Source: a virus
Strand: one strand, 5' to 3'
Virus record (IMG/VR): IMGVR_UViG_3300034407_002014
Location: 1-44,533 of that record
DNA length: 44,533 nucleotides
Made by a program: the position numbers and the translations under genes. Below the pieces are notes generated by a model. That model was given only the letters and a program-made list of their open reading frames with translations. It was not told the origin of the DNA and did not search any database. Of this stretch, positions 21,010-28,912 are shown one piece after another; the stretch's first letter is position 1, and each line of letters starts with the position of its first letter.

Positions 21010-21017
21010 TATAAATA
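21010..21017 (+). promoter_or_regulatory. T4-type late promoter (TATAAATA)
   Basis: Exact T4 late consensus TATAAATA, 30 bases before the first internal-head-protein gene. A TTGACA (20982-20987) with 17-base spacing to a poor -10 (TATCGT, 21005-21010) overlaps it, so early transcription is also conceivable. Confidence 0.8.
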
Positions 21018-21047
21018 GTTAAAATATTTGTACAGATGGAGTTATTG

Positions 21048-22271
21048 ATGAGTTTGCAACCACATGTTAGACAGTTAAAGCCGAGAAACGAATCTACTGT
21101 AAATCATGTAGAAAAAGTTCAAAAACTATATGAAGGTTCTACTGAAGCTGCAAAAGAAATGGAATATGTTCTTGTTCACGCAGCTGGCGGTAAACAAGAA
21201 TCTGAATATAAAAATCTTAAAAAATATACAGATAAACTTGGTTTTGATGAACCATTAGATGTAGGTAAAAAAATCATAGATGGTATTGGTCTAACTGGTA
21301 AAGGTGGTTATATGGCCGCATCAGGGAAAATAACTTCTAAAAAATGGTCTGATGGAACACCGCAATGGACAGGCACTAATGTAACTCCAAAAACTGATAT
21401 AGTTCTTGGTGATAAAAAAGTATCTCTCAAAAAAGGCAGTTCACAACTCATGTCAGGTGGCCCTGCTGAATCTATGTCAACTTTTAGGGCAGCAGTAGAA
21501 AATACATCTAGTTTTGATCTTACTAATCTTGCAAAAGAAGTTGAAGATGGAATTAGAAATTTATTGCCATCTACAGTTGGTGAGTTTATGGGTGGTGCAG
21601 ATTTACAAAAAACTGGTGGTACAGTTTATAAAAATACTAGACAGAAAAAAGGTAAACTTGGAGATGTTGCTCCTGGCACTTTTGATAAAGATAAAGTTCT
21701 TTCAGCAGCGGATAAACATAACCAACAATTAAAAAAGAAGTTTGCCCAGCTATTTGCAGAAAATATAGAGTTTAAGAAAAACTTTGTTTATGAGGCAATG
21801 ACAGGAGCTGTAAAGTTTGATAGGGGCCCTGCTGCAGCTGATTGGTTTTTAGTTGTAGATTTTGATGGAAGTCACGAAATGAATGTGGTGAAATCTGCTG
21901 ACGATCCATATGTTAGTAAGGTGCTTTCAAAGGTTAAACCAGATGTTAAATTCAAATCTACTGCTGTCAAAAAGAAAATAGATGGAAAAGATACTAAGAC
22001 TGGCCACTATAGATTTTGGTCTGTTGTTGGACTAGGTTATAAAGCAGCGGTCAAAAATCTAAACAACGCTTATGAAGATTACGAGAATGGAGAGTTGTTA
22101 CAAGAGGGATTTTTTGATAAAGTTAAAAAAATATACAAAAGATTTCAACAATTCTTGAGTCGAGTTTTTATGAAGATGAAAGCATTTATAACTGCTTCAG
22201 TTAATAATATGGCAGAGTTTTTAGGTGTTGAACCAGAAGTAAATTTTAATAACAACATAAGTTGGAAGTAA
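21048..22271 (+). CDS. Hypothetical virion/internal protein, 407 aa
   Basis: Protein of unknown function found at the head of a late operon. It is lysine-rich with glycine-rich stretches. The C-terminal part contains LLQEGFFDKVKK, an L-x-E followed by G as in T4 prohead protease sites, then a basic helical tail with many phenylalanines. It may be a core or ejected protein. ATG 21048 is chosen because GGAG (21038-21041) precedes it by six bases; ATG 21036 would lack a site. No enzyme motif seen. Confidence 0.6.
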   Translation: MSLQPHVRQLKPRNESTVNHVEKVQKLYEGSTEAAKEMEYVLVHAAGGKQESEYKNLKKYTDKLGFDEPLDVGKKIIDGIGLTGKGGYMAASGKITSKKWSDGTPQWTGTNVTPKTDIVLGDKKVSLKKGSSQLMSGGPAESMSTFRAAVENTSSFDLTNLAKEVEDGIRNLLPSTVGEFMGGADLQKTGGTVYKNTRQKKGKLGDVAPGTFDKDKVLSAADKHNQQLKKKFAQLFAENIEFKKNFVYEAMTGAVKFDRGPAAADWFLVVDFDGSHEMNVVKSADDPYVSKVLSKVKPDVKFKSTAVKKKIDGKDTKTGHYRFWSVVGLGYKAAVKNLNNAYEDYENGELLQEGFFDKVKKIYKRFQQFLSRVFMKMKAFITASVNNMAEFLGVEPEVNFNNNISWK

Positions 22272-22272
22272 A

Positions 22273-22659
22273 ATGAAAAACTTTATAGAACTATACGAGG
22301 GGATAAAAAAGGTTGACGTTGTGCAACGTAAGAAGATGGCTCGTCGTATGGCAAAGATGGCAAAGTCCTCTGCCTTCCAGACAAAGAAGGCAAAGGCAAT
22401 GTTGAAAATGCGTTCGCCTGAAAAACTTAAAGCAGCTGCTCGTAAAGCAGTCATCAAACAGTTTAGATATAAGATGTTCCCAAACTATGATCAAATACCA
22501 CTTGCTCAAAGACCAAAGGCAGATGAGAAGGTAAATCAAAAGTTTGGTAAGAAGATAGACAAACTAACAAATAAGATGGTCCAGCAGTTGAAGAAAAAAG
22601 AACTCGAAAGAGTCAAACAAGCGAGAGCTGCTGCATCAGGGAAGATGGACGATGCGTAG
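22273..22659 (+). CDS. Basic internal head protein candidate, 128 aa
   Basis: Very lysine- and arginine-rich protein, probably DNA-associated. Its N-terminus MKNFIELYEG has the L-x-E-G form of a T4 prohead-protease site behind a short start like the capsid-targeting sequence of T4 internal proteins. After cleavage it would be a polybasic polypeptide of about 119 residues. Similar proteins occur in marine T4-like phages without an assigned function. It overlaps the next gene by 8 bases. Confidence 0.6.
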   Translation: MKNFIELYEGIKKVDVVQRKKMARRMAKMAKSSAFQTKKAKAMLKMRSPEKLKAAARKAVIKQFRYKMFPNYDQIPLAQRPKADEKVNQKFGKKIDKLTNKMVQQLKKKELERVKQARAAASGKMDDA

Positions 22660-25600
22660 TTTTAGAGAAATATTAGAGGCTAAAGGGGATACAGCTGTCT
22701 TCACATTTGGACGCTTTAATCCCCCTACAACTGGTCACGAAAAACTTATTGATGCATTGGCAAGAGAGAGTAAGAAAGTCTCTGGTTCTAAGATGTATGT
22801 GTTTGCTTCTCATAGTCAAGACCCAAAGAAAAATCCTCTGCCGTATCCCAAAAAGATTGCGTATATGAAGAAGATGTTTCCAAAGTATAAGTCAAACATC
22901 ACTACCGCAAAACAGAGAAACGTGTTTGAAGTTGCAACATTTTTACATGACAAGGGTCATCGTTCGGTTGTGATGGTTGTTGGCTCAGATCGGGTTGATG
23001 AGTTTGATAGACTTTTAAATGAATATAACGGTGTCCAAGGACGACACGGTTACTACGGATTTGATAGCATAGAGGTTGTTTCTGCTGGAGAACGTGATCC
23101 AGATGCTGAGGGTGTAGAGGGAATGTCTGCATCCAAGATGAGAGCTGCTGCAGCAGAGGGAGAGTTTGACCAGTTTAAACAAGGTCTGCCAAGTGGTTTC
23201 AAAGAGGCCAAGAAGTTATTTAGAGATGTTCTTGCGGGTATGGGTATTCGTGAAGAGCGTGACATGGGAAAGATGACGGATTACGAAGAGTTGCGTGATG
23301 CATACTTGACAAATAAGATTTGGAGAATAGATGATTTAGTGGAGGCTAACGGTGTAGAGGGGAGAATTGTAAGGAGAGGGACAAACTATATTTCATACAT
23401 GGACGGTAGTGGTAAAGTTCATAAAGCATGGTTACAGGATATCGCATTAAATGAGCGAAATTATAGAAAAGAGTATGACAACTACCACTCTCGTCCAGAA
23501 CAAATTGAGAAACGATCCTCTCGTAATAAAGCTCGTAGAGCAATGGGTGATAATGCAGTAAAGGGTATGGATGTTGGTCATAAAGACAACAACCCACTGA
23601 ACAATGACCCTGATAATTTACGCAATGAAGACCCGTCTACAAATCGTAGAGAGCCACGATTGCGTGAGAAACGTGATGCTGGATATCCAGATGACTCTGA
23701 AAAGATTGGTAAGAAGCACTATATCATCTATAAAGATCGTAGAGATTGGTATGGGTTTGAAGTAGACAAGGATGGCAACCAGCTTGGAGATGCTATATTT
23801 GATCCCAGAAAGGGTGAATTAAAGAAAATGATTCTAAGGTTCCAAGAGGAAGTTGAACTTGATGAAATGGCTTGGTTTAAGAAACTTAGGTCAAAAATTG
23901 ATCGAATGACGCATCCTAAAGCTTACGATAAATTGATCAAACGATATGTTCAAGATGTGGGTGATAAAGCCGGTACACAAGTTAGAGATACTGGTAGCAT
24001 TAAAGTAAATAGCCCGTCCGCCATTGCGGCAGATATTGCAAATGAAGTTAATATCAACCCAAGAGAGTTTATAGAGTATATCAACAAACTGGTCAAAAAA
24101 GGTGTTCTTCCAAAAGAGTTGAAAGCACAGGTGCAAAAAGAAATGGTAACATTTAAAGAATTAGTGACTCAGATCAATGAAGTAAAACAGGACGCTGATA
24201 TAAAGAAACGTCCCGGCACACAACCCGCCAAGTATTATGCAAAGGACACTGAAGGCGATGCAATGGCAAAGTCCACTAAGCAAGCTCGGGCAAGACACTT
24301 TGCAAAGAAAAAGACAGGTCCAGCACCCGGCGATGCATCTGCAACAACCAAACCGTCGAAGCATACTAAAAAGTTTAAGCAGATGTATGGTGAAGAAAAG
24401 ATGGAGTGTCCACCAGCCACAAAAGATGTTGCGTTGAATACAAAGAATAGAAATGCCACAAGAGACAATCATATGTATGGTCCACTGAATGTGAAAGAGC
24501 CTGGTGATTACTGGGAGAAGCTTGCAGATAGATGGGACACAACGGTTGAAGCCGCTAAAAAGTCTAAGTGTGGTAACTGCGTTGCATTTGATATCTCACC
24601 AAGGATGGAAGAATGTATGCCGGGTTCTGTGAGTGATGAGTCTGGTAGGTTGGGATATTGTTGGATGCACCATTTCAAATGTCACTCTGCAAGAAGTTGT
24701 GATACTTGGGCCACAGGTGGACCAATAAGAGAAGACAAGAAGTCCTATGAATGGCAAAAGAAAGCATTTGGTAAAAGTGAAAAACTTGGTAAGAACGCAG
24801 ATATGGGTGATTATATTGACGACTTTGAAAAATCAGACGCACCACAGTTCAAGGGTAAATCTAAAGAGAAACGTAAGGACATGGCTATCGCTGCATATCT
24901 ATCCAAAAATGAATCTCTTTTGGACAAGGTAAACACAATTTTGAGTGAAGATGGCCATGCTGATGTTGTGTCAATGAAAAATAAAATAGAGATTGCTCAA
25001 AAGGCATTGGCAAAAATGCAAGTCGAATTAAGTAAATTAGGTGATGAGGATAGCCTTCCCACATGGTGGACAAATAAGGTTGCGACAGCTGTGAGTAGAA
25101 TAGATGACATGTCTGACTACCTTGATACTCAAGTAGAGGGGTATCAACTTGACGAGAAGATTGCAGCACTTGTTAAGAAGGCCGAGAAAAGTGGTATGCC
25201 ATATTCAATTCTAAAGAAAGTCTATGATCGTGGTATGGCTGCGTATAAGACAGGACACAGACCAGGCGCAACACCGCAACAGTGGGCACTTGCGAGGGTT
25301 AACTCGTTCACCACAAAGAGTTCGGGAACTTGGGGTAAAGCAGATAAAGACCTTGCGAAACAAGTTCGTGGTGAGGGTTTAGAAGAAGATGGGCCGTGTT
25401 GGGACACACACAAACAGGTTGGAATGAAGAAAAAAGGCGGCAAAATGGTTCCAAACTGTGTGCCGAAGAATGAGGACGCAGAATTGAATGAGTGGGGTGA
25501 GGTTACAGAGAAGGCTGAATATAATGGAAGACCTGTAGACCTAAATAATCCTACAAAGGGAGACGTAAAAAAATATAAGGTTTACGTCAAAAATGAAAAG

Positions 25601-25783
25601 GGAAATGTGGTAAAAGTTGAGTTTGGTGATCCTAATATGGAAATAAAACGTGACGATCCAGGCCGCCGAGCAAATTTTAGGGCAAGACATAACTGTGACA
25701 ATCCTGGCCCGAAGTATAAAGCAAGATATTGGTCATGTAAGTTTTGGAGTGCAAAATCAGTTACGGACTTAATGAAGGGATAA
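22652..25783 (+). CDS. Modular polyprotein: nucleotidyltransferase, HNH and other modules
   Basis: A 1043-residue protein built from segments divided by candidate prohead-protease sites (L/I-x-E): E9, E231, E268, E405, E510, E766, E835, E912, E947. Residues 14-200 look like an NMNAT/cytidylyltransferase-type nucleotidyltransferase (FGRFNPPTTGHEKL; SASKMR). Residues 250-340 carry an HNH-like motif (DVGHKDNNPLNNDPDNLR). Residues 580-690 are cysteine-rich (CGNC, YCWMHH, CHSARSC). Residues 840-905 hold a TGHRPGATPQQWALARVNSF module, and the C-terminal 90 residues a CDNPGPKYKARYW motif. Such modules recur in marine T4-like phages. I infer a polyprotein cut during capsid maturation into several packaged proteins. 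Confidence 0.65.
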   Translation: MRSFREILEAKGDTAVFTFGRFNPPTTGHEKLIDALARESKKVSGSKMYVFASHSQDPKKNPLPYPKKIAYMKKMFPKYKSNITTAKQRNVFEVATFLHDKGHRSVVMVVGSDRVDEFDRLLNEYNGVQGRHGYYGFDSIEVVSAGERDPDAEGVEGMSASKMRAAAAEGEFDQFKQGLPSGFKEAKKLFRDVLAGMGIREERDMGKMTDYEELRDAYLTNKIWRIDDLVEANGVEGRIVRRGTNYISYMDGSGKVHKAWLQDIALNERNYRKEYDNYHSRPEQIEKRSSRNKARRAMGDNAVKGMDVGHKDNNPLNNDPDNLRNEDPSTNRREPRLREKRDAGYPDDSEKIGKKHYIIYKDRRDWYGFEVDKDGNQLGDAIFDPRKGELKKMILRFQEEVELDEMAWFKKLRSKIDRMTHPKAYDKLIKRYVQDVGDKAGTQVRDTGSIKVNSPSAIAADIANEVNINPREFIEYINKLVKKGVLPKELKAQVQKEMVTFKELVTQINEVKQDADIKKRPGTQPAKYYAKDTEGDAMAKSTKQARARHFAKKKTGPAPGDASATTKPSKHTKKFKQMYGEEKMECPPATKDVALNTKNRNATRDNHMYGPLNVKEPGDYWEKLADRWDTTVEAAKKSKCGNCVAFDISPRMEECMPGSVSDESGRLGYCWMHHFKCHSARSCDTWATGGPIREDKKSYEWQKKAFGKSEKLGKNADMGDYIDDFEKSDAPQFKGKSKEKRKDMAIAAYLSKNESLLDKVNTILSEDGHADVVSMKNKIEIAQKALAKMQVELSKLGDEDSLPTWWTNKVATAVSRIDDMSDYLDTQVEGYQLDEKIAALVKKAEKSGMPYSILKKVYDRGMAAYKTGHRPGATPQQWALARVNSFTTKSSGTWGKADKDLAKQVRGEGLEEDGPCWDTHKQVGMKKKGGKMVPNCVPKNEDAELNEWGEVTEKAEYNGRPVDLNNPTKGDVKKYKVYVKNEKGNVVKVEFGDPNMEIKRDDPGRRANFRARHNCDNPGPKYKARYWSCKFWSAKSVTDLMKG

Positions 25784-25787
25784 GGAC

Positions 25788-27896
25788 ATGACAAGTTACA
25801 GAACAACAATGCGTGAAGCGCTGGAAATTATGAATGAGGATAATCTTGAGAAGATGCGTAAAGCCGCTGGTGGTGCAAAGCAAACACTCAAAATGAAAGA
25901 CGGCTCTATTGGTATGGATAGTTTCACCGCATCTGCTATCATGCAAATCTATGATAAGATCAATGACAAGAATAAAAAGACCTTTGAAAATATGATGAAT
26001 AATGGTAAGAAGGCAGACATTGTGAAACTGCAAAGGTTTGCCATGTCCAAAGTCAATGCATCTTATGAAGAGTTTGAGGAAGAGTTTGACCTTGATGAAG
26101 CAGAAGCAGGTATCAAAGTACACGCTGGTCCTGACCATGATAGAAAAGTAAAGCGTATACAAAGTTTAGCAAAACAGTTAGGCGCTAAAGTAACAAATGT
26201 TGGTAAAAGCACAGATGGTAAAATGTCAACTATTCATGTAAAAGGCAGCATGAAAGTTGTTAATGACTTAATGAAACTGAGAACTGAAGAAGTTGACCTT
26301 GATGAAGGCACAAAACAGGTTCTTGCTCACGGTGGTAAAGGTAAGTATAAAGTAACCAAGGATGGCGACAAAATTGAAATTAAGTTCGGTGGTAAGGTAG
26401 TTGGAACTGCTGACTTTGATCGTGGTGCCGATAGTTTCTTCGTAAGTATCAAAGGTGAGAAGGGTCAGAAGTCTTTTGACGATGCACAGGCAATCGCAGA
26501 TTATTTCGCAAAGAACAAGATTACAGAAGAAGTTGAACTTGATGAAGGATTTATTAATATTGGTGGAGCTAAAGTAAAAGATGATGAAAAATCTATACTA
26601 CAGCACATCAAGAAAACTTTTCCTAATGTAAAAAAAGTCAGAAAAGACCCACAATATGGCTGGATTCCAGTGTTTGAAGAAGTTGAACTTGATGAGGCAA
26701 AGTATGACCTATATCACAAAGACTTCTCATCTGCTATGCAACACTCATATAAGATGGCAAAGAAACTCTATGGTATCACAGTTGACCCCAAAGAGATTGA
26801 TGACAAGGTTGCATCTGGTCCAAGAAAACCATCAGAGGGCAAGACAAACAGTTATCGTCTGAAAGGTGACAAGGGTGCTATCCAAGTTCAAGTATACAAC
26901 AAGGGCGGTTCAAAACCATTTGAGTTGAATATGTATAAAGAAGAAGTTGAACTTGATGAGGGTAAGATGAGTGCAGCACAGATTGCTAAACTGAAAAAAG
27001 CATATGAGCCAATGCGTGGTAAAAAGATTAGCATGGCAAGTGGTCAAAAATTAAGTTCAATCATGGACAAAGTTGATGATGATAAAGAAGCATTAAGTCA
27101 ACTCGTCAAAGCTGACATTCCATTTGTTAGTCAATTAGCTGTTACCAGACTTATCACAAAGCATGGTATGAAAGGTGCAGAGATTAGAAAAATGCAAGAG
27201 GAAGTTGAACTTGATGAAGGCACAAAACAGGTTCTTGCTCATGGGGGCAAGGGTCAGTATAAAGCAGTTAGGGATGGTGACATTACCAAAATTATGTATA
27301 AGGGTAAGGTAGTTGGAACTGCTGACTTTGACCGTGGCGCAGATAGTTTCATGGTGAGCATGAAAGGTCAGAAGGGTCAGAAGTCTTTTGATGATGCACA
27401 GGCAATGGTAGATTATTTTGCCAAGAACAAGATTACAGAAGGAGTTGATGAAGGTGCAGCTGCTGATGCTCGCCGTGCAATGCGTAGTGATCCAGATATG
27501 AAACAGAGAGCATTTTCAAAAGATGACTCTGCGACTGACGATGAGAGAAAAGCAGCATCCAAGAATATAATGATGCAGATGAGGAAGGCAGTTTCGTTGC
27601 GTTCCTTTGATGTAGAGTTTGCAGATGGAAAGAAAATTAAAATCCCACAGAAGGTTGCTCAAGCAGTTCTTCAGAAATATAACTCTTTCCGTAAACCAGC
27701 TGACAAAGAGAAATACCAGACAAAGGTCGGTAAGTCTTACAAAGATATGCTGTCTGCACTGAAAGAAGGGTTTGCAAGTGACGCACAAAGACGAGCTGCA
27801 TTTGCTCAAGGTTATAAAGCAAAGGGTAAAAAAGATAAAAAAGAATCCACGTTAGAACGGATGAACAAAAAAATACAGGAGAAGAAAAATGGGTAA
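25788..27896 (+). CDS. Repeat polyprotein with six L-D-E sites
   Basis: A 702-residue lysine-rich protein punctuated by DLDE or VELDE sites at residues 102-104, 171-173, 251-253, 301-303, 389-391 and 475-477, each followed by A or G, as in T4 prohead-protease targets. The pieces between them are 50 to 90 residues. Residues 174-247 (GTKQVLAHGGKGKYK to NKITE) are duplicated at 478-551 with few changes. The last 150 residues are basic and helical. It most likely gives several small internal head proteins after cleavage. No enzymatic motif. It starts five bases after the preceding stop, with AAGGAC upstream. Confidence 0.62.
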   Translation: MTSYRTTMREALEIMNEDNLEKMRKAAGGAKQTLKMKDGSIGMDSFTASAIMQIYDKINDKNKKTFENMMNNGKKADIVKLQRFAMSKVNASYEEFEEEFDLDEAEAGIKVHAGPDHDRKVKRIQSLAKQLGAKVTNVGKSTDGKMSTIHVKGSMKVVNDLMKLRTEEVDLDEGTKQVLAHGGKGKYKVTKDGDKIEIKFGGKVVGTADFDRGADSFFVSIKGEKGQKSFDDAQAIADYFAKNKITEEVELDEGFINIGGAKVKDDEKSILQHIKKTFPNVKKVRKDPQYGWIPVFEEVELDEAKYDLYHKDFSSAMQHSYKMAKKLYGITVDPKEIDDKVASGPRKPSEGKTNSYRLKGDKGAIQVQVYNKGGSKPFELNMYKEEVELDEGKMSAAQIAKLKKAYEPMRGKKISMASGQKLSSIMDKVDDDKEALSQLVKADIPFVSQLAVTRLITKHGMKGAEIRKMQEEVELDEGTKQVLAHGGKGQYKAVRDGDITKIMYKGKVVGTADFDRGADSFMVSMKGQKGQKSFDDAQAMVDYFAKNKITEGVDEGAAADARRAMRSDPDMKQRAFSKDDSATDDERKAASKNIMMQMRKAVSLRSFDVEFADGKKIKIPQKVAQAVLQKYNSFRKPADKEKYQTKVGKSYKDMLSALKEGFASDAQRRAAFAQGYKAKGKKDKKESTLERMNKKIQEKKNG
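26307..26531 (+). repeat. Internal duplication, copy A
   Basis: Codes for GTKQVLAHGGKGKYK to NKITEE within the repeat polyprotein. It is near-identical in DNA over much of its length to 27219-27440. Confidence 0.85.
27219..27440 (+). repeat. Internal duplication, copy B
   Basis: Second copy of the segment at 26307-26531, again directly after a VELDE site. Differences include deletion or substitution around the KVTKDGDKIEI region and FFVS changed to FMVS. Confidence 0.85.
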
Positions 27897-28395
27897 GAGA
27901 TACCTTGACACAAAAAAAGATAGCCTTGAGTCATCCATTCTAAATGTATGGCAAGAAGCTGCAGTAAAACAAGAAAAACTTGTCGGTGGTCAAAAGAAAC
28001 TTGACAAAGACAAGGACGGTGATATTGATGGTAAAGATTTTGCCATGTTGAGAAAGACAGCAAAGAAAGACAAAAAAGAAGGTGCAATGAAACGTGGAAA
28101 AGATTTGGACACGTTTAAACCAAAACCTAAAAAAGAAGAAGTTGAAGAGTCTTATGAGATTGGTACAGATGAGTATCGTAAACATACTCAAGATGTCACG
28201 CCTGGTCAATCAGTTGAGGATTATGGTAGGATGAAAATGCAGTCCATGAAAGAGGCTCTCGCAAAAGTTTGGGGTCTTGAGGAAGAAAAAGACAAAAAAG
28301 CCTTGACAAAAGAGATGAAAGGTGGTAAAACATTAACTGGAAAGAAAGTTGATGAAGTTGATGTTGAACCAAAAATGAACGAAAAAAAGAGATAA
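27889..28395 (+). CDS. Small head-associated candidate with EF-hand-like loop
   Basis: A 168-residue charged protein. The N-terminal MGKRYLDTKKDSLE segment is one I recognise from marine T4-like phages. Residues 38-50 (DKDKDGDIDGKDF) match an EF-hand calcium loop (D-x-D-x-D-G-x-I-x-x-x-D). The rest is low-complexity lysine/glutamate. It overlaps the end of the repeat polyprotein by 8 bases and has AGGAGAAG upstream. Function unknown; probably virion-associated from its late-operon context. Confidence 0.55.
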   Translation: MGKRYLDTKKDSLESSILNVWQEAAVKQEKLVGGQKKLDKDKDGDIDGKDFAMLRKTAKKDKKEGAMKRGKDLDTFKPKPKKEEVEESYEIGTDEYRKHTQDVTPGQSVEDYGRMKMQSMKEALAKVWGLEEEKDKKALTKEMKGGKTLTGKKVDEVDVEPKMNEKKR

Positions 28396-28396
28396 G

Positions 28397-28912
28397 ATGA
28401 AATCACTACTTGAGTTAACAAAAAAAACAGAGAGAGACTTGCCGGATATCTACTGTGATATGGATCAAGTCCTTTGTAACTTTTTAAAGGGCGCAGAGGA
28501 CGCAATCGGCGGTGATTTTAGAACCACTGATAAAGAGGACCGTTGGGCTGCAATCAATCAAACAAAAGATTTCTGGGCAAATCTTGAGTGGATGCCGGGT
28601 GCAAAGAGGATGTATCAGTTCATCGAAAAGTATAATCCATACATTCTGTCTGCTGCATCTGGTCGTGATCCCACTTCAAAGACAGGTAAAATGAAATGGT
28701 TGGCAAAGAATACGAACTTTAAAAAGTCTCGCATTCACCTTGTCATGCGGTCACAAAAACAACAGTATGCTGTTACGGATGGTAAAGCAAACATTCTAAT
28801 AGATGACTACATGAAAAACATAAAAGAATGGGAGAGCAAAGGTGGTATTGGAGTTCACCACACTGACCCTCGTAAAACCATTGGTGAATTGAAGCGTCTA
28901 GGATTTAAATAA
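28397..28912 (+). CDS. HAD-family 5'-nucleotidase-like protein
   Basis: A 171-residue HAD phosphatase resembling 5'(3')-deoxyribonucleotidases. Motif I is DIYCDMDQVLCNF (D-x-D-x-V), motif II around LSAASGRD, and motif IV ILIDDYMKNIKEW. It could recycle or remove nucleoside monophosphates during infection. The N-terminus MKSLLELTKK resembles the short leaders of neighbouring head-protein genes, but no clear L-x-E follows. It starts one base after the preceding stop codon. Confidence 0.72.
   Translation: MKSLLELTKKTERDLPDIYCDMDQVLCNFLKGAEDAIGGDFRTTDKEDRWAAINQTKDFWANLEWMPGAKRMYQFIEKYNPYILSAASGRDPTSKTGKMKWLAKNTNFKKSRIHLVMRSQKQQYAVTDGKANILIDDYMKNIKEWESKGGIGVHHTDPRKTIGELKRLGFK

Follow-up and report, generated by a model that had tools for sequence, protein, structure and literature searches.

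Two adjacent genes of a T4-like marine myovirus fragment probably encode capsid-targeted polyproteins with prohead protease sites between exchangeable modules

ORF A and ORF B, two neighboring genes of a marine phage, are in our judgment likely to encode capsid-targeted polyprotein precursors of internal head proteins that are cut in trans by a gp21-type protease. An earlier note on this DNA had proposed such prohead protease-cut polyproteins, and the proposal is supported by leaders, LxE motifs at module edges, predicted disorder, the same linker in the gp22 scaffold of a related head operon and published cyanophage virion data. Cleavage, packaging of the ORF A and ORF B proteins and their delivery to the host are inferred, as no cleavage product has been observed; for cyanophage homologs the location in virions was shown by others, with co-purification not excluded.

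Genomic Setting of ORF A and ORF B

The window, i.e., the whole stretch of DNA analyzed (44.5 kb), is part of a marine myovirus genome of the T4-like, Kyanoviridae-like kind, with recognizable genes for DNA polymerase, clamp, clamp loader, primase, a CobS-like protein and Hsp20. As a fragment, it has no gp21 or capsid genes of its own. Because head genes are absent from the window, a gp21-type protease for ORF A and ORF B was inferred from relatives. ORF A (22652-25783, plus strand, 1043 aa) and ORF B (25788-27896, plus strand, 702 aa) are part of a compact run of six genes (21036-28912), and both the coordinates and lengths of the two ORFs and the positions of the sites agreed with those in the earlier note. 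The same gene order around ORF A and ORF B was found in Pelagibacter phage HTVC008M and Methylophilales phage Melnitz. An assembly artefact was rejected as an explanation, since chains of this kind were found in many separate contigs as well as in these two isolates.

A T4-type late-promoter box with the exact sequence TATAAATA is present upstream of the gene block (21010-21017, plus strand); this is a consensus match only. In total, the plus strand of the window has exact TATAAATA boxes at 1019, 21010, 29966, 30799, 34744, and 44159; all six are on the coding strand, none is on the opposite strand, and several are located directly upstream of genes. The first gene of the block (21036-22271, plus strand, 411 aa) has positional homologs starting with MLSFTGYSNLSE/A and MQGFKTFLSE/A, the slash marking here and below the putative cut. 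It is followed by a gene for a small basic protein (22273-22659, plus strand, 128 aa) with its own leader, MKNFIELYE/G, and a homolog in Melnitz. The gene after ORF B (27889-28395) encodes an EF-hand-like DKDKDGDIDGKDF loop, and comparable D-x-D-x-D loops are repeatedly present in relatives, for example in the virion protein gp92 of S-SCSM1; that such loops bind calcium is a guess. In relatives, a neighboring leader-bearing gene contains a KWDGAPA motif resembling the active site of RNA/DNA ligases (L086, 3712-4944; L087, 4995-6251; L088, 3374-4597). A PADLOC search gave no match.

Leader, Modules and Sites of ORF A

The ORF A protein consists of a leader, an NMNAT/cytidylyltransferase-like, an HNH-like, a cysteine-rich, a TGHRPG (DUF5824) and C-terminal AEYNGRPV modules. 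In a fold search, the first domain resembled NMN and phosphopantetheine adenylyltransferases. The leader MRSFREILE/A (E9; 22652-22678, plus strand) is of the T4 capsid-targeting type: like most relatives, ORF A starts with M[KR]xFxx[LI]xE/A, which has the form of the T4 capsid-targeting sequence. The motif [LI]xE occurs 13 times, compared to 6.5 expected from composition. Further downstream, all on the plus strand, are the linker EEVELDE/M (E405; 23846-23866), whose DNA is the same as that of the ORF B linkers, a possible site QINE/V in a disordered stretch (E510; 24161-24181), the site YQLDE/K immediately upstream of the TGHRPG module (E835; 25136-25156), and a possible site AELNE/W close to the start of the C-terminal module (E947; 25472-25492). 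Except for the leader and E231, the P1' residue at the ORF A sites is neither A nor G.

In the structure model of ORF A, five of the six sites listed in the earlier note belong to the leader or fall within or next to stretches of low confidence; this test is weak, with 405 residues below a pLDDT of 50. The remaining site, E231, is located within a conserved mini-domain with a confident fold prediction (pLDDT ~91) and, judged by this model, is probably not cut. The claim that the listed sites fall between modules is thus probably wrong for E231; the six ORF B sites coincide with predicted disordered breaks. The mini-domain (23324-23455, residues ~225-268) follows the nucleotidyltransferase and may be similar to the beta domain of MscS (rmsd 2.3 A over 54 columns), with a weak E-value and the region assigned by inference.

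ORF B Is Predicted to Be a String of Small Domains

ORF B is split by LxE linkers into eight pieces of 5.8-17 kDa. The six LDE motifs announced in the earlier note were all found, followed by A, G, G, A, G, and G: EEFDLDE/A (E104; 26079-26099), EEVDLDE/G (E173; 26286-26306), EEVELDE/G (E253; 26526-26546), EEVELDE/A (E303; 26676-26696), EEVELDE/G (E391; 26940-26960), and EEVELDE/G (E477; 27198-27218), all on the plus strand. They are 50-88 residues apart (from E104 to E477: 69, 80, 50, 88, and 86). A degenerate site, KITE/G (E551; 27420-27440, plus strand), is located in a disordered break. Altogether, [LI]xE occurs 10 times in ORF B, compared to 4.7 expected from composition.

In the AlphaFold model, each of the six LDE sites coincides with a segment of pLDDT <50 (P ~2e-4) and is positioned in or beside a disordered break between predicted folded domains; the additional LxE at E551 is also at a domain break. 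The pTM of 0.31 describes independent beads. The start of ORF B differs from that of ORF A: its leader, MTSYxxTMxEAL, matches the T4 type only partly and is less certain, and the exact N-terminal LxE, present in 12 of 26 relatives, is absent.

No function could be assigned with confidence to any ORF B module by fold searches; the best PDB matches of the model were nucleic acid-binding KH-like domains with an E-value of 0.007 or worse (not significant), and the viral matches were uncharacterized proteins. The second module (26100-26306) has a beta-alpha-beta-beta-alpha layout. The GTKQVLAHGG module is present in two copies (26307-26546 and 27219-27440, plus strand) and was duplicated together with its linker, as 26286-26536 and 27198-27448 are 84% identical over 251 nt. 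The modules of ORF A and ORF B had been described as unrelated, which fits the disparate domains of the chains (NMNAT-like, HNH-like, DUF5824 and others) but not these two copies. The most shared ORF B module is AKYDLYHKDF (26697-26960, plus strand) with 36 homologs, which have an LxE directly upstream in 31 of 36 and directly downstream in 29 of 32 cases.

LDE Motifs Are Enriched in Acidic Linkers of the ORF B Family

With ORF B, 80 loci were retrieved from IMG/VR, and 56 dereplicated ORF B relatives were analyzed. They contain 146 LDE motifs compared to 11.2 ± 3.4 in shuffled sequences (13-fold) and 158 [LI]xE[AGS] motifs compared to 50 (about threefold). The reversed motif Ex[LI], used as control, showed a ratio of 1.08; for the remaining ORFs in these loci the ratio was about 1.2. 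Because the relatives are akin, z-scores overstate their independence, and the boundary and disorder tests carry more weight. Among the 415 LxE of the family, 192 are located in acidic linkers and 223 elsewhere, with 244 expected for the whole; since the number outside linkers is near expectation, the excess is restricted to the linkers. The profile over the 192 linker sites reads K-E-E-V-E-L-D-E followed by A or G and K, with A/G favored at P1'.

Modules Are Shuffled with LxE at Their Edges

To compare module order, relatives were cut at LxE and the pieces grouped as linker-trimmed communities; single-linkage clustering of the segments was not used, as the shared linker merged all of them. 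About 31 modules recur, and their order varies between relatives. TGHRPG and other modules are shared across A-type and B-type chains. Homologs of the ORF B modules, found by sequence similarity to the linker-trimmed modules, have an LxE directly upstream in 59 of 68 and directly downstream in 69 of 79 copies, while 22-24% would be expected by chance. The ends of homologous stretches coincide with LxE 2.0-2.9 times more often than random positions; this result was obtained with stricter cut-offs, a permissive BLAST version being diluted by lysine-rich chance matches. At many module edges the DNA and the surrounding residues differ and the LxE stays (GLDE, PLEE, DIDE). In phage C48C1, the TGHRPG and AEYQG modules, which are internal in ORF A, are single small genes with the leaders MITFKKYLEE/ and MKKFKQYIDE/, then an LxE.

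The linkers are also alike as DNA. Of the pairs of EEVELDE linkers within single ORFs, 71% were identical over 18 nt, whereas codon usage would predict 0.9%; 50 of 71 linkers have exactly the sequence GAAGAAGTTGAACTTGAT, and the linker leucine codon is CTT in 61 of 66 cases (background 33%). These near-identical linkers precede mostly unrelated modules. Identity beyond codon usage suggests that linker DNA has been exchanged or converted, in keeping with the shuffling, although recombination as its cause is an inference. It is probable that the cut site serves as a recombination patch as well. Such a role cannot substitute for selection at the protein level, because LxE is kept where the DNA differs.

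Links to the Phage Head

Leader-like N-termini were found in two of the six genes of the block and in none of the other 45 genes of the window (P = 0.012). For the HTVC008M cluster, the enrichment was not significant (2 of 14 compared to 11 of 166 in the rest of that genome, P = 0.27). Genes for a gp21-type protease are present in the relatives HTVC008M and L097. The gp21, gp22 and capsid proteins of HTVC008M all have LxE sites, and the capsid site FLGE/IA presumably matches the cut in T4 gp23 (no formal alignment was made). A search for the linker pattern led to a head operon in L097 with the gene order gp21-type protease, gp22 scaffold, major capsid protein. This gp22-type scaffold (L097, 2932-4116; also in L117) carries NEEVELDE/G upstream of its C-terminal segment. 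T4 gp21 cuts after L/I-x-E (PMC9026906).

Published mass spectrometry of virions identified gp89-93, gp95, and gp97 in S-SCSM1, gp154, 155, 156, and 160 in S-CREM2, T4-GC190 in S-SM1, and a cytidylyltransferase in S-SZBM1. S-SCSM1 gp91 is the ORF A homolog and gp92 carries EEVELDE/R. The authors of two of these studies regarded co-purification as possible.

Discussion

We propose that the N-terminal leader would recruit the chain to the scaffold core inside the prohead, in the manner of the capsid-targeting sequence of T4 internal proteins. As the head matures, a gp21-type protease would cut on the C-terminal side of the glutamate in [LI]xE linkers, in most cases EEVELDE followed by A or G, and thereby set free the leader and small folded, mostly basic domains (~6-17 kDa from ORF B), which could stay in the head and pass to the next host. 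As a short stretch of shared DNA, the linker might allow modules to be gained, lost or swapped by recombination with the cut site left intact.

The same motifs might serve another purpose. ORF A and ORF B could be sacrificial scaffold or propeptide chains that are chopped at LxE and whose pieces exit the head, so that the modules are not cargo. T4 core proteins and the propeptides of giant phages are indeed cut several times and mostly removed, and the gp22 of L097 has the same linker as ORF A and ORF B. This gp22 was recognized as such, whereas neither ORF A nor ORF B matched a scaffold family; moreover, the ORF B modules are predicted folded domains, single modules also exist as separate leader-bearing genes, and an NMNAT-like enzyme corresponding to the first domain of ORF A has been reported in mature cyanophage virions. 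We therefore regard a sacrificial role as unlikely. That the chains are not cut at all, with the linker being merely a DNA recombination patch or a flexible acidic spacer and its match to a protease site incidental, seems quite improbable to us. Linker DNA that is near-identical far beyond codon usage and the shuffling of modules are what a patch needs, and acidic spacers are plausible in lysine-rich proteins. A patch or spacer does not explain, however, why LxE persists at edges with differing DNA and other residues, why [LI] at P3 and E at P1 match the specificity of gp21 with A/G favored at P1', why leaders and linkers share one motif, or why the linker is found in gp22, whose T4 homolog is a gp21 substrate.

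Least of all do we expect the two proteins to act outside the head, as cytoplasmic multidomain proteins for host takeover. Neither of them has been seen in a particle, and the NMNAT-like domain could serve metabolism during infection, but the leaders, the late-promoter box and the repeated detection of syntenic proteins in cyanophage virions speak for the head. With internal head protein precursors as the preferred reading, we lean toward a broader proposal, held less firmly: cargo polyproteins cut in trans by the head protease, with a linker conserved as exchange patch, so that the injected set is reloaded cassette by cassette.

A literature search that covered few subscription journals revealed no earlier description of phage head polyproteins cut by the prohead protease, and a text search for the linker peptide yielded unrelated words only. 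The polyprotein strategy looks new for tailed phages. T4-like phages deliver their internal head proteins to the host among the first proteins; in abundant marine phages, such proteins are almost unknown. If our proposal is true, the rule of cutting after LxE would resolve a large number of hypothetical proteins from pelagiphage- and methylophage-like viruses into a catalog of small injected domains, tailed phages would gain a polyprotein strategy, and there would be a natural modular way of loading several proteins per phage head with one leader.

Comparison with Known Systems

The T4 proteins IPI, IPII, IPIII, and Alt (PMC9026906; PMC3012670) have, like ORF A, an N-terminal leader ending in LxE/A, which in T4 is removed by the prohead protease, and the internal proteins are similarly small and diverse, in a set that changes fast. 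IPI, presumed to cross the portal in folded form, is similar in size to the ~6-17 kDa domains (PMC9026906). T4 uses one gene per internal protein, whereas ORF A and ORF B have many modules per leader and repeated internal sites. Several cuts after glutamate by a gp21-type protease are also known from T4 gp22 and gp67 and from the propeptides of the giant phages phiKZ and SPN3US (PMC9026906; PMC10052503); those pieces are mainly removed, whereas in ORF A and ORF B they would be conserved modules with a predicted fold, some of which also occur as single genes.

The polyvalent proteins of phages and conjugative elements, such as DarB and DdrB of P1 and the virion RNA polymerase of N4 (PMC5512222), likewise combine several unrelated domains in one chain. 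They are believed to accompany the DNA into the host and to be separated into units there or before, and were likened to polyproteins by the authors (PMC5512222). For polyvalent proteins, embedded peptidases were proposed, which are frequent but not universal; no peptidase domain above the cut-off was found in ORF A or ORF B with Pfam or PHROGs, and their sites fit a head protease acting in trans. Close counterparts are also the virion-associated cytidylyltransferase/NMNAT proteins of cyanophages (T4-GC190, S-SCSM1 gp91, S-CREM2 gp154). They are much shorter than ORF A and lack its long module tail, but they are homologous to its first domain, syntenic, found in virions and preceded by a leader of the form MKxFxxFLxE/A.
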